Origin: a virus
DNA length: 22,544 nucleotides
Reading direction: 5' to 3' (one strand)
IMG/VR virus record: IMGVR_UViG_3300032893_002905
Coordinates: 1-22,544 of that record
The position numbers were made by a program, and so were the translations under genes. This document shows, piece by piece, positions 16,737 through 22,493 of this stretch (the first letter of the stretch is position 1; each line of letters begins with the position of its first letter). Below the pieces are notes generated by a model. That model was not told the origin of the DNA. It saw only the letters and a program-made list of their open reading frames with translations, and searched no databases.

Positions 16737-16971
16737 CGCCGTCGCGCTCCAGAATTCTCAACTCGGCCGACCAGTCCGCCAGCGCCATGCAGAGGCCCTC
16801 GACGTCCGGATGGCCGGCGAGGAGCAACGCTTCGGTAGCCGCGATCTCGGCGCGGCAACGGTCCGCTTCACGCTGCCACTGCGCTTCTCGTTCCGGCGAC
16901 CTCGCGGTAACTCTTCCCGTCGGATTCAAGCTTGGCTTCCCGCCCGGTGAACGCCTGCCAGCGACGAACAA
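16729..16971 (-). CDS. Small hydrophilic phage protein, up to 80 aa, start uncertain
   Basis: The frame ends at TGA 16729 inside the start of the next gene and overlaps the end of the methyltransferase gene. The well-formed part is REAQWQREADRCRAEIAATE and ALADWSAELRILERDGDD, a helical, Trp-containing, acidic protein. The only ATG start is 16971, 104 bp inside the methyltransferase gene. A TTG at 16929 (66 aa), preceded by GGGCGGGAAG, is another possibility. The coupling with the following gene suggests translation, but the N-terminus cannot be decided from sequence. Confidence 0.55.
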   Translation of the reverse strand: MFVAGRRSPGGKPSLNPTGRVTARSPEREAQWQREADRCRAEIAATEALLLAGHPDVEGLCMALADWSAELRILERDGDD

Positions 16972-18112
16972 TCACATCGCAATACTTCGGCTCCAACTCG
17001 ATCAGCCGCGCCTGCCGTCCGGACTTCTCACACGCGATCATGGTCGTGCCCGATCCGCCGAACGGATCGAGGATGGTGTCACGCGTCTTGCTGCTGTTGC
17101 GGATCGCGCGCTCCACCAGTTCCACCGGCTTCATGGTCGGATGGGCTTGGCTCGATGCTGGCCTCTTGATGAACCAGATATCGCCCTGGTCCCGCGCGCC
17201 GCACCAGAAGTGATCCGTGCCCTTGCGCCAGCCGTAGAGAATCGGTTCGTACTGCCGCTGGTAATCCGACCGGCCCAACGTGAAGTGGTGCTTCGCCCAG
17301 ATCACGAACGTGGACCAGTAGCCGCCTGCGTCGGTGAACGCCTGATGGAGCGTGTGCAGTTCCGACGACGACATGCAGACGTAAATGGCGCCCTTCGTTA
17401 CCGCCAGCACGTTCGCGCACGCATCGCGCAGGAAGTCATAGAACTTGGCGCCCAGCGTGTCGTTGCCGATCTTGAGCTTTTTGGCGGTCTTGCCTTCGTA
17501 ATCGACGTTGTACGGCGGGTCCGTAAAAACCATGTCGGCCAAGCCGCCAGAGAGAACGGCCTGGACCGCATCCATGCTGGTCGCATCGCCGCACAGCAGC
17601 CGGTGCTCGCCCATCAGCCAGACGTCTCCGCGCACGGTAACCGCGTGCTCCTCCTCTTCGGGAATCGCATCGTCATCGGTCAGTCCAACATTGGACTCCT
17701 CTGGATCGCGCAGAAGCTCTTCAACCTCCTCGTCCGTGAAACCGACTAGGTCGAGGTCGAAGCCATCCTCCTCGAGCGACTCCAACTCCACGCGCAGCAT
17801 CTCTTCGTCCCATCCGGCGTTCAGTGCCAGCCGGTTGTCCGCGAGCACGAGGGCCCGCCGCTGCGTTGGAGTCAGATGATCCAGGACGATGACCGGCACC
17901 TCGGCCAGCTTCAGTTTCCGGGCAGCCGCCAGGCGCGCGTGGCCGGCGATGATCACTCCGTCCGCGCCAACCAGAATCGGATTCGTCCAGCCGAACTCGA
18001 CGATGCTGGCCGCGACCTGCGCCACCTGCTCCTCGGAATGGGTGCGGGCGTTGCGCGCATAGGGAATCAGTTTCTCAACTGACCACTGCTGCACCTGGAG
18101 TTCGGTCTTCAT
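16868..18112 (-). CDS. ParB-domain / DNA N6-adenine methyltransferase fusion, 414 aa (DPPY type)
   Basis: Residues 8-135 form a ParB-like nuclease/CTPase domain: SVEKLIPYARNARTH and the box IIAGHARLAAARKL at 54-67. After an acidic linker (about 135-160) comes the methyltransferase: CGDATSMDAV at 174-183, the catalytic TDPPYNVDY at 197-205 and the SAM-binding LDPFGGSGTT at 348-357. DPPY before FGGSGTT is the beta-class order of N6-adenine methyltransferases. Such ParB-methyltransferase fusions are typical of phages and mobile elements and may modify phage DNA against host restriction. The gene lies 3 bp after a second, related fusion gene. ATG 18112 is the start; GGAAGG lies about 13 bp upstream. 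Confidence 0.93.
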   Translation of the reverse strand: MKTELQVQQWSVEKLIPYARNARTHSEEQVAQVAASIVEFGWTNPILVGADGVIIAGHARLAAARKLKLAEVPVIVLDHLTPTQRRALVLADNRLALNAGWDEEMLRVELESLEEDGFDLDLVGFTDEEVEELLRDPEESNVGLTDDDAIPEEEEHAVTVRGDVWLMGEHRLLCGDATSMDAVQAVLSGGLADMVFTDPPYNVDYEGKTAKKLKIGNDTLGAKFYDFLRDACANVLAVTKGAIYVCMSSSELHTLHQAFTDAGGYWSTFVIWAKHHFTLGRSDYQRQYEPILYGWRKGTDHFWCGARDQGDIWFIKRPASSQAHPTMKPVELVERAIRNSSKTRDTILDPFGGSGTTMIACEKSGRQARLIELEPKYCDVIVRRWQAFTGREAKLESDGKSYREVAGTRSAVAA

Positions 18113-18115
18113 GGC

Positions 18116-19666
18116 TCAGGAGACCTTCCGGCGGCTCCCGTAGAACGGTGCCGGCCCGTTGTGTTGAATGCGTCGGGCATCCCTCGCGCGCGGGTTGTCG
18201 ACCTGTTCAATCGGGACATCGCGCGCGGCCGCAACTGCGGTGATCGTCTGGCCAGTGGCGAGTAGAATCGGAACCTCGCCGCTCAGGTTAGAGATCCGCC
18301 GCAGGATCACATCGCAGTACGACGGACTGATCTCGCAACCCACTCCGATCCGCTCCAAGACTTCCGCGGCGGCGATCGTCGTGCCGCTCCCCAGGAACGG
18401 ATCAAACACCACGTCGCCGCCGTCCGTGAACGCCTTGACGAAGAACTCGGCCAGCGCGCGAGGAAAGGGAGCGGAGTGTGATCCTTGGTTGGACTCCGTT
18501 CTCGCCTCGATGACGTTGCTCGGGCGCGCGACGCCACGGAACCGGCCATCGTCATCGGCTGCCCCCGGCTTCTCGGCGGCGGTTCCGCGCGCACCCGTGC
18601 CCAATAATCCGCTGCCGGAGGTCGATTTCGGGTTGTTCGGCGAGTAGTCGAAGCAATCCTCCGAGACGTGACCGACCGCCTTCGGCCGGAACTTGATCTC
18701 GGGCTGGCGACAGAAGTGGAACACCGGCTCCCAGGCGTTCTTGAATCGATTGCCCCAGCCGCCCGGCACACCGTTATCGGTTTTGCGCCAGCAAAACTCA
18801 TCAACGAAGCGCCAGCCCCAGTGGCGTCGGTGCGTCAGCACGAGATCCATCACGTACAAATTCCGCTCGCCTTCGGCCGCGTGCGCCTTGATGTTCAAGA
18901 AGTAGGAGCCATCGGGCGCCAGAATGGCTTGGATGTTCGCGGCGACGTCGCGGAACCAATCGCAATACTCCTCCGGAGGCACCGGTTTGAAGCCGCTGGT
19001 GGGATCGTATTCGCGTTGCGTGGCGTAGGGCGGCGAGGTAATCACGACGTTCGCGTGCTTTCCGCCGAGCAATTTCTCAATCACACCGAGATCGCTGCAG
19101 TCGCCGCAGATGAGGCGGTGCGGTCCGATCAACCACACATCGCCAAGCCGCGTAATCGGCTGGCTCGGCGGTTCGGGAAGCGGTTCTTCCTCTTCCGGCT
19201 CCGAACTGTCGTCGGCGCTTGCGAGTAACGCCTCCAACTCCTCGTCGGAGAAGCCCACGAGTTTGAGGTCGAGCCCGTCGCGCTCCAAATCGGCCAGTTC
19301 CGCAGCCAGGACCTCCTCGTTCCAGCCCGCGTTCTCTGCCAGTTTGTTGTCGGCGATGATGTAAGCCCGACGTTGGGTCTCGGTCAGGTGGTCCAGCACC
19401 ACAACCGGGACTTCCGACAGGCCCAACTTGCGTGCCGCCAGCAGACGGCCGTGGCCGGCGACGATTCCGGCGTTGCTGTCCACAAGGATCGGCGCGTTGA
19501 AGCCAAACGCGGCAATCGACGCCGCAATCTGGGCCACTTGTTCCGGCGAGTGCGTGCGTGCGTTTTTGGAGTACGGCACCACACGGTCCACTGACCAGAT
19601 TTCGATGCGCCGCGCCAGCGCGGGCGTAATGGAAACGGGTTCGTGGATCACTGGAATTGCCGTCAT
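18116..19666 (-). CDS. ParB-domain / DNA methyltransferase fusion, 516 aa (SPPY type)
   Basis: This paralogue of the next gene has a ParB-like domain at about 24-150 (SVDRVVPYSKNARTH; GHGRLLAARKL at 71-81) that is about two-thirds identical by eye to its neighbour. The methyltransferase has CGDCSDLGVI at 188-197, VITSPPYATQ at 208-217 and FDPFLGSGTT at 421-430. SPPY, rather than DPPY, is more typical of N4-cytosine enzymes but also occurs in phage N6-adenine enzymes. About 200 residues separate the two motifs, more than in the neighbour, with a Gly/Ala-rich insert near 345-375. I take ATG 19666 (MTAIPVIHEP) with GAAGGGG upstream; the frame is open to about 19819, with an alternative GTG preceded by AGAGGT. 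Confidence 0.9.
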   Translation of the reverse strand: MTAIPVIHEPVSITPALARRIEIWSVDRVVPYSKNARTHSPEQVAQIAASIAAFGFNAPILVDSNAGIVAGHGRLLAARKLGLSEVPVVVLDHLTETQRRAYIIADNKLAENAGWNEEVLAAELADLERDGLDLKLVGFSDEELEALLASADDSSEPEEEEPLPEPPSQPITRLGDVWLIGPHRLICGDCSDLGVIEKLLGGKHANVVITSPPYATQREYDPTSGFKPVPPEEYCDWFRDVAANIQAILAPDGSYFLNIKAHAAEGERNLYVMDLVLTHRRHWGWRFVDEFCWRKTDNGVPGGWGNRFKNAWEPVFHFCRQPEIKFRPKAVGHVSEDCFDYSPNNPKSTSGSGLLGTGARGTAAEKPGAADDDGRFRGVARPSNVIEARTESNQGSHSAPFPRALAEFFVKAFTDGGDVVFDPFLGSGTTIAAAEVLERIGVGCEISPSYCDVILRRISNLSGEVPILLATGQTITAVAAARDVPIEQVDNPRARDARRIQHNGPAPFYGSRRKVS

Positions 19667-19868
19667 CGGCCGCCCCTTCGCGCACTGTTGGCCCACGTTG
19701 CGCCCCGTCGCGGCGGGTTGGCCTTGTCCTACCAGGCTGGCTGGCGGGCCGCCACGGGGCGCGCGGAGGGTGACCACCGACCACCTCTTTTTTCGTCTGA
19801 CGGTAGCGAAATGGTGCAATCGTGCAACGCGCCGCCGCCGGTCGCCCGGAAGTACCTATGAAACGAAA

Positions 19869-21012: not shown

Positions 21013-21615
21013 TCAGGGGGTATCGCCGGCCAGGAAGGTGAGTTCCGGACAGCGGGCGTGCAGCAAGTCACCAACGTTGAAGGCTTCCTCAAATGCCGAA
21101 TGCGCAACATCGAAGTCGTACCCAGGCCATCCCTTTTCGGCTGCTGCCTGCGCGTATGAGTAGAGATCGAAGAAGCCGTAATCGTGCTTGAACTCATGCA
21201 AGCCAAGTAGCCGCGGGCCCGAACCGACCAACGCCACGTGAAGGCAGTTCTGCCCACCCAGTCGCCGCAGTACCTGCCGGTTTCCTTCGTGCATCGGATT
21301 CAGGACGTGTTCCTTCAGAAAGTACGGCACGCCCTCTTCATCGACTGGCGGCAGCCACCACAGGATAAATGCTATCGGACCCGCCTGCGTAACTGCCAGG
21401 CCGCAACGGACGCGGAGATCAATAGTCTCGCAGCGGGACAGCGTTTCCAGGAAGGATGTTCTGTCGAACCACATCGCAATCACCTCTTGGCCGATGGATT
21501 CGTGGATGGTGGCAACATCTAGTACGAAGCCATTCCGGCCCCGATGATGCCAGATGGCTTGATCCAACTCGCTGGAATGTTGACCCACGATGAAGCTGAT
21601 ATTCCGACCGATCAT
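21013..21615 (-). CDS. Unknown protein, 200 aa, paralogue of its upstream neighbour
   Basis: I use ATG 21615 (MIGRNISFIVGQHSSELDQA), 5 bp after the stop of the upstream gene; a TTG at 21624 would overlap that stop. The protein shares a clear pattern with the gene before it: IGQEVIAM at 41-48, a hydrophobic core AGPIAFILWWLPPVDEEG at 78-95, NPMHEGNRQVLRRLGGQ at 106-122, LHVAL at 125-129, a GF aromatic turn near 147-149 and a C-terminal helix AHSAFEEAFNVGDLLHAR. The 'GPxxFxxWWxPP' stretch looks like a buried strand pair, not a membrane helix. No known family is recognised. It ends in a short Cys-Pro-containing tail (CPELTFLAGDTP). Confidence 0.72.
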   Translation of the reverse strand: MIGRNISFIVGQHSSELDQAIWHHRGRNGFVLDVATIHESIGQEVIAMWFDRTSFLETLSRCETIDLRVRCGLAVTQAGPIAFILWWLPPVDEEGVPYFLKEHVLNPMHEGNRQVLRRLGGQNCLHVALVGSGPRLLGLHEFKHDYGFFDLYSYAQAAAEKGWPGYDFDVAHSAFEEAFNVGDLLHARCPELTFLAGDTP

Positions 21616-21620
21616 GGCAT

Positions 21621-22178
21621 TCAATCATACCGGCCGGCAAGGATATCGTCGATCTCGTACTCCCGCTCGTATGCGCCCTTCGCCTCGGCAAAATCCGCTG
21701 GACCGCGCCACGCAACGCGCGCACCGTCCACGGCCGCCCGGATCCCGCCGAAACCGAAGATGTTCTCGTACTCAAAGACGGTCACAACCTGGCCGGTCTC
21801 GTCCGTGACGATCACGTGGAGGTGTGTTTGTTCCGCCACGCGGCGAAGGACCTCGGATGTGTTTAGGTACAAGGGGTTCATGATCTGTTCGTAGAAGGCG
21901 GTAGGGCGCCCGCTGACGATGGGTGGTATCCACCAGATTAGGAAAAGGACAGGACCGTAGTCAGTCGCAGCAATACCAGCTTTGAGATTGAGGTCCAGCC
22001 TCCTCTTTGCGAGCAGTTCGTCCGGCTCCGGTTCGATCAGTAGCGCCACGGCTTCCGGTCCGATGCGTTCGTCGAGCGTAACCTCTTCGAAAAGAACGCC
22101 AGACCCAGATGGCAGGCCGCTGAACGCCATGAAACTCCAGTCTCGGCGTTCAGGCGCAAGCTGGTTATTGAGCGGCAT
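21621..22178 (-). CDS. Unknown protein, 185 aa, first of a paralogous pair
   Basis: ATG 22178 (MPLNNQLAPERRDWSF) follows GGGGCGGTC. Pattern shared with the next gene: IGPEAVALLIEP at 39-50, YGPVLFLIWWIPPIVSG at 74-90, NPLYLNTSEVLRRVAEQ at 101-117, LHVIV at 120-124, FEYENIFGFGG at 135-145 and the C-terminal EAKGAYEREYEIDDILAGR. The order, spacing and hydrophobic stretches match, so the two arose by tandem duplication and have diverged strongly. It is likely soluble; a function is not recognised. The pair lies next to the tRNA gene, at the outer end of the phage-like genes, and may be bacterial cargo rather than phage structural. Confidence 0.75.
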   Translation of the reverse strand: MPLNNQLAPERRDWSFMAFSGLPSGSGVLFEEVTLDERIGPEAVALLIEPEPDELLAKRRLDLNLKAGIAATDYGPVLFLIWWIPPIVSGRPTAFYEQIMNPLYLNTSEVLRRVAEQTHLHVIVTDETGQVVTVFEYENIFGFGGIRAAVDGARVAWRGPADFAEAKGAYEREYEIDDILAGRYD

Positions 22179-22418
22179 TTTGACCGCCCCGCCGAGCCGT
22201 CGATTCTAAGTTGTCTGGTTGCGCGTGCGGCCGAGCCTCGCTCGTCGGCATGATCGATATCATCGCAGAATTCCAACCTGCCGGGCACCCGATGAGGGAC
22301 GCGTTCGTCCGGTTCGACGGCGTGGTGCGGGAGAGTTTGCCGCGTTGCGCGTCGTCTCGGCTGGCCCGTTGCGCGTCACAGCGCGTCACAGCGCAAAGCC
22401 CGTAAGTCTTTGAATTAT
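22179..22418. other. Gap between the paralogous pair and tRNA-Glu, with short direct repeats
   Basis: No convincing gene is visible. GCGCGTCACA is repeated in tandem at 22371-22390, followed by GCGC. CGTTGCGCGTC occurs at 22343-22353 and 22367-22377, 24 bp apart. Such short repeats next to a tRNA 3' end could be protein-binding arm sites or a copied remnant, but no integrase gene is here to support that. Confidence 0.5.
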
Positions 22419-22493
22419 TGGTAGCGCTAACGGGAATCGAACCCGTATTTAAGCCTTGAGAGGGCTCCGTCCTAACCGTTAGACGATAGCGCC
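22419..22493 (-). tRNA. tRNA-Glu (anticodon CTC)
   Basis: On the minus strand the gene reads GGCGCTA (acceptor), D-arm GTCTAACGGTTAGGAC, anticodon arm GAGCC-CTCTCAA-GGCTT with anticodon CTC, and T-arm ACGGG-TTCGAAT-CCCGT. The acceptor 3' strand TAGCGCT pairs with the 5' strand (G-U at the first pair), then A and an encoded CCA (22419-22421). The length with CCA is 75 nt, as for tRNA-Glu. The 3' end faces the phage genes. It decodes GAG. Confidence 0.96.

Follow-up and report, generated by a model that had tools for sequence, protein, structure and literature searches.

Genes A and B, two neighbouring genes beside a tRNA gene at the border of a prophage of a soil bacterium, belong to an undescribed family of rare, patchily distributed, soluble proteins of ~180-200 aa from Acidobacteriota. 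The family is rare, occurs mostly as a single gene and is often found beside anti-phage defence genes, and for this reason A and B are probably mobile accessory genes linked to phage-bacterium conflict. Of most interest is that relatives lie next to several different defence systems. The whole stretch of DNA that we analysed, here called the window, is 22,544 bases long and makes up a virus record; its genes include those for terminase, portal, capsid and ParB-methyltransferase (PHROGs).

Genes A and B are diverged paralogues under purifying selection

The original prediction of tandem homologous genes was confirmed. Both ORFs are present on the minus strand (Table 1), and pairwise BLASTP comparison of their products gave 30% identity and 53% positives over 162 aa (E 2e-26). 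A and B are therefore homologous, with a similarity far beyond chance. B lies downstream of A and five bases separate the stop of A from the ATG of B; an alternative TTG start of B at 21624, 9 bases upstream, would add 3 aa. In the leader between the tRNA gene and A no convincing sigma-70-like site was found.

Table 1. Features at the tRNA end of the window.
Feature	Position	Strand	Product	Basis and remarks
Gene A	22178..21621	(-)	ATG start, 185 aa	ORF; family member (GPxxFxxWWxPP ... YExxxNP ... QTHLHV ... FEYEN)
Gene B	21615..21013	(-)	ATG start, 200 aa	ORF; diverged paralogue of A
tRNA-Glu(CTC)	22419-22493	(-)		ARAGORN; 3' end points towards gene A and the prophage
tRNA-gene A leader	22179..22418	(-)		Position only; presumed to hold the promoter of the A-B unit

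All motifs that had been named as shared were found in the alignment. IGPEA in one protein is aligned with IGQEV in the other, LHV is common to both, and the counterparts of further named motifs are GPVLFLIWWIPP/GPIAFILWWLPP and NPLYLNTSEVLRR/NPMHEGNRQVLRR. Only the C-terminal motif had to be corrected, as it had been noted with one 'x' too many and reads A[YF]ExxxxxxDxL in the alignment.

Comparison of the window with the sister-prophage copies gave dN/dS values of 0.13-0.23 for gene A and 0.12-0.16 for gene B. Such values identify both as real, maintained genes under purifying selection. The two were also said to be products of duplication, which holds in so far as they are paralogues. A recent local tandem duplication, however, was not established, because A resembles B (26-32% identity) no more than it resembles members that occur singly in other, unrelated loci (33-37% for the G257 member, 28-33% for the G074 member). 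In the tree, A and B form separate clades with B on a long branch, and the deep forks lack resolution.

A rare family of Acidobacteriota

Profile searches with A and B returned no match in Pfam, NCBIfam, PHROG or PADLOC, nor among PDB sequences, and nothing significant was obtained for any family member tested. This agrees with the earlier statement that no known family could be recognised. The only Pfam match of A, a weak one to DUF6894 (PF21834) at residues 110-134 (E 0.075), was rejected, as its 13.6 bits are below the curated cut-off of 24.1; it was seen in one of nine family members.

The family was collected by profile searches of Acidobacteriota genomes, which recovered about ten members. 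They are present in 6 of 257 genomes of the order to which the sister prophage L004 belongs and in 2 of 397 genomes of another order. The members closest to A come from G955 (68% identical) and G709 (51%), and the G727 member is 81-83% identical to B. Those of G257, G074 and G360 are distant, and G754 carries a degenerate fragment of A. Over 11 sequences, 13 columns are invariant (M1, N5, G27, G40, E42, T72, G75, P76, W82, E97, P102, Q117 and E136 in the numbering of A). These do not suggest any particular enzyme, and none looks catalytic.

We found no relative of A or B in 50,697 phage records, and motif and profile scans of viral contigs recovered no member of the family. Beyond Acidobacteriota, coverage consisted of one narrow pattern scan and of plasmid and phage sets. 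The tblastn matches in plasmids and phages were at chance level only, and the match in Ensifer (E 0.01) is a stop-filled stretch.

The family proteins are short and have no evident membrane segments. Structure prediction with five sequences gave weak models: that of gene A (pLDDT 56, pTM 0.49) is mixed alpha/beta at low confidence, and that of gene B reached pLDDT 40 and pTM 0.37. With the model of A, Foldseek returned nothing at E <= 0.001, and in a second fold comparison no Z was above 3.4. Resemblances to RNA-binding or LOV/PAS folds within these lists were discarded as noise.

The genes lie at the border of a prophage

The order tRNA-Glu, A, (B), phage genes is also found in two Terriglobia metagenome-assembled genomes (L004 and L005). 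Their gene A copies at the same tRNA are 94% and 88% identical to that of the window, and the gene B copy in L004 is 92% identical. The 51 bases past the tRNA differ among the window, L004 and L005, and the phage side of the tRNA is 83-90% identical across the three. As the host-side flanks differ and the phage-side sequence is conserved, the 3' end of tRNA-Glu(CTC) is likely the attachment site, and the same contrast places A and B as the first genes inside the prophage. The predicted prophage border beside the tRNA is thus corroborated. Tyrosine integrase (PF00589) was not found in the window, which is a fragment.

Several other features of these prophages were noticed. In L005 (11632-14782), three consecutive overlapping tyrosine-recombinase genes are inserted, with the ParB-methyltransferase gene on one side and the DUF3489-like/terminase genes on the other; we take them to resemble a recombinase-in-trio element. 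The window carries two adjacent ParB-methyltransferase fusion genes (16868-18112 and 18116-19819, minus strand), which are paralogues of each other. It also contains three ORFs on the strand opposite to the phage genes (1205-2413, 11116-11856 and 15154-16407, plus strand; 402, 246 and 417 aa), which had no PHROG or PADLOC match and are possibly further prophage cargo.

The pair is a lineage-specific cassette

The genes had been proposed to form an undescribed two-gene system, and a survey of whether homologues always occur as neighbours had been suggested, with homologues that normally occur singly named as counter-evidence. The family is indeed undescribed, but this counter-evidence was largely obtained: most homologues are single, and only the window and the sister prophage L004 carry both genes intact. 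One intact gene each is present in G257, G074, G360, G709, G955 and L005. In L005, A is intact and ~550 bp of B are deleted internally, with both ends of B left. The reverse is seen in G727, where B is intact and A is reduced to its last 38 codons. Here the similarity to the window is 82% at the nucleotide level over 737 bp, which begin in the last part of A, reach to the B stop and contain no phage sequence. Since it stops at the B stop, the cassette is present there without phage sequence.

Because single states prevail, we conclude that the rare family is mostly single-copy and that A-B is a lineage-specific cassette in it, not a fixed two-gene system. The strict two-gene reading was rejected, as single-gene states exist, and it is unlikely that A and B work as an obligatory two-gene machine.

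Relatives are located beside different defence systems

Seven chromosomal loci were inspected, of which three are clear defence loci (G257, G360 and G727), two are candidates (G709 and G955) and two are negative (G074 and G754). The G257 member is a fusion protein of 399 aa, with the family domain at its N-terminus and a second domain behind it. Its gene starts 12 bp after that of a DruE/YprA-like helicase, which is itself preceded by genes for an Eco57I/DrmMI-like methyltransferase and a DrmD/BrxHII-like helicase; conjugation-type genes follow the family gene (read from the sequences). The C-terminal domain of the G257 protein has a relative of its own (32% over 126 aa, E 8e-13), encoded between the major tail protein and tape measure protein genes of a Peptoclostridium prophage and without a Pfam match. 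The comparison concerns L012:9541-10179 and L018:8959-9642.

In G360 the family gene shares its strand with a BrxE-BrxA-BrxC-PglX-PglZ locus, which lies downstream of it. Between the family gene and BrxE there are three genes (L019:10353-14456; 210, 897 and 210 aa) that had no Pfam or PADLOC match where tested. In G727, B and the A remnant are situated 1.4 kb after a run of HmaC/DUF499, HmaB/DUF1156-type methyltransferase, DarT, DarG and PLD-type helicase genes, and an opposite-strand ORF lies in the 1.4 kb between B and these defence genes.

The G709 gene has a Ser/Thr kinase-FHA gene on one side, at a distance of 34 bp, and a DprA/SLOG gene with a weak PsyrA match on the other, at 27 bp. In G955 a run of nucleotide-metabolism genes and a serine recombinase precede the family gene. 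This run (L030:3512-7622) consists of RNase_H_2, dNMP-kinase-like, adenylosuccinate-synthetase-like and dCTP-deaminase-like genes and looks like a nucleotide-metabolism island. The G074 gene adjoins an IS30-like transposase, with no defence gene seen by eye, and no evident defence genes surround the A fragment of G754. Of the window itself five proteins were scanned, and none could be identified as a defence protein.

Assuming that 3-10% of genes in such genomes lie within ~10 kb of a known defence system, the chance of at least three defence loci out of seven is ~0.001 to 0.03. This proximity is only suggestive, because the base rate is higher for genes on mobile islands.

Possible roles of the family

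The homology of A and B, their purifying selection, their position in the prophage and the loci of their relatives are established, and from the last of these we infer a defence link by guilt by association. Our tentative preference, held with somewhat less than even confidence, is that the rare family to which A and B belong travels as accessory cargo with mobile elements and defence islands, and that the two genes encode a small cytosolic conflict protein that serves lysogenic conversion here. A-B would then be a short two-gene prophage cassette beside the attachment tRNA, presumably expressed in the lysogen. The family protein may be a small intracellular adaptor or sensor subunit that helps to block incoming phages, acting alone or, where a larger defence machine is encoded next to it, by binding to that machine. 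A might represent the ancestral-type module, working by itself, and B a second copy that diverged towards another partner or trigger and is no obligate antidote. Beside the defence context of the relatives, the mobility of the cassette seen in G727 and the constraint on both genes speak for this reading, as does the lack of a match in the phage records and viral contigs, which sets A and B apart from core phage genes. Against it, only three of the seven chromosomal loci are clear defence loci, B of G727 is set apart from the defence genes there, the scanned proteins of the window included no defence protein, and the invariant residues do not look catalytic. The associated defence systems are also unrelated to one another, and this fits a passenger of islands as well as a shared subunit. 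A more specific proposal, which we regard as rather unlikely, is that the family is a modular component common to unrelated anti-phage machines (the ARMADA/DISARM-like operon, BREX, the Hma/DUF499 locus and the kinase-FHA/SLOG operon), which would have passed to prophages as a cassette of two paralogues that serves phage-phage competition.

It is possible, although we consider it unlikely, that A and B are mobile accessory genes whose function has nothing to do with phage defence, and that they keep this company only because mobile islands and integration sites collect both. The unrelated types of the neighbouring defence systems would be expected in such a case, as would the low and patchy frequency of the family in both orders and the transposase and the serine recombinase with nucleotide-metabolism genes next to the G074 and G955 members. 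However, mere co-residence does not sit well with the 12-34 bp co-directional spacing to defence-type genes in G257 and G709, or with the co-directional run into BREX in G360. The prophage copies could also be phage-borne relatives of a defence component that serve as decoys or inhibitors of the host version. Defence operons (G257, G360) and a prophage do both contain members of the family, and its paralogues are strongly diverged, as expected for interfering copies. This counter-defence role is nevertheless improbable, as the A-B cassette is also present, in decayed form, in the chromosomal defence island of G727, and no host was seen with both a defence copy and a prophage copy.

Two further explanations appear very improbable to us. 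One sees A and B as an obligatory heteromeric pair, either a toxin-antitoxin or a two-part sensor; in two prophages the genes are indeed adjacent, probably co-transcribed and only five bases apart. Yet L005, G955 and G709 have A but no B, and G727 has B but no full A, so neither gene needs the other for viability, and a toxin-antitoxin pair was rejected on the same grounds. Paralogous partners would also be unusual for a toxin and its antidote. The other, which we doubt to the same degree, takes them for ordinary phage genes, for example for the control of integration or lysogeny, given the position at the attachment site. The genes adjoin the attachment tRNA in three prophages, but the phage records and viral contigs hold no relative and the single relatives are located in non-phage loci. 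With members next to several unrelated defence systems and also in a prophage, the unnamed family offers a concrete candidate for a hitherto unrecognised protein with a defence, accessory or counter-defence role, and it gives a short list of loci in Acidobacteriota, whose phage biology is little studied.

Comparison with known systems

ARMADA comprises a BrxHII-like helicase, a PglX-like methyltransferase and a YprA-like helicase, and the fourth gene of its Type II encodes a GajB-like helicase fused to a RelE-like domain (PMC12458937). The family gene of G257 comes directly after helicase, methyltransferase and DruE/YprA-like helicase genes in the same order as in Type II (PMC12458937), but its product differs from that fourth protein. 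None of the ARMADA genes lies beside A and B in the window. With BREX of the type that has BrxE, the likeness lies in the upstream, same-strand position of the G360 member; the family protein, however, is no known BREX component, and the genes that separate it from BrxE are uncharacterised.

Lysogenic-conversion genes are usually found beside the attachment tRNA at the end of a prophage. A and B resemble such moron cassettes in being two small genes at the prophage end by a tRNA, unconserved among phages and under selection: they lie inside the prophage boundary, had no relatives in the phage records and viral contigs searched, and show dN/dS of 0.12-0.23. In their protein family, an undescribed one, they differ from the known cassettes.
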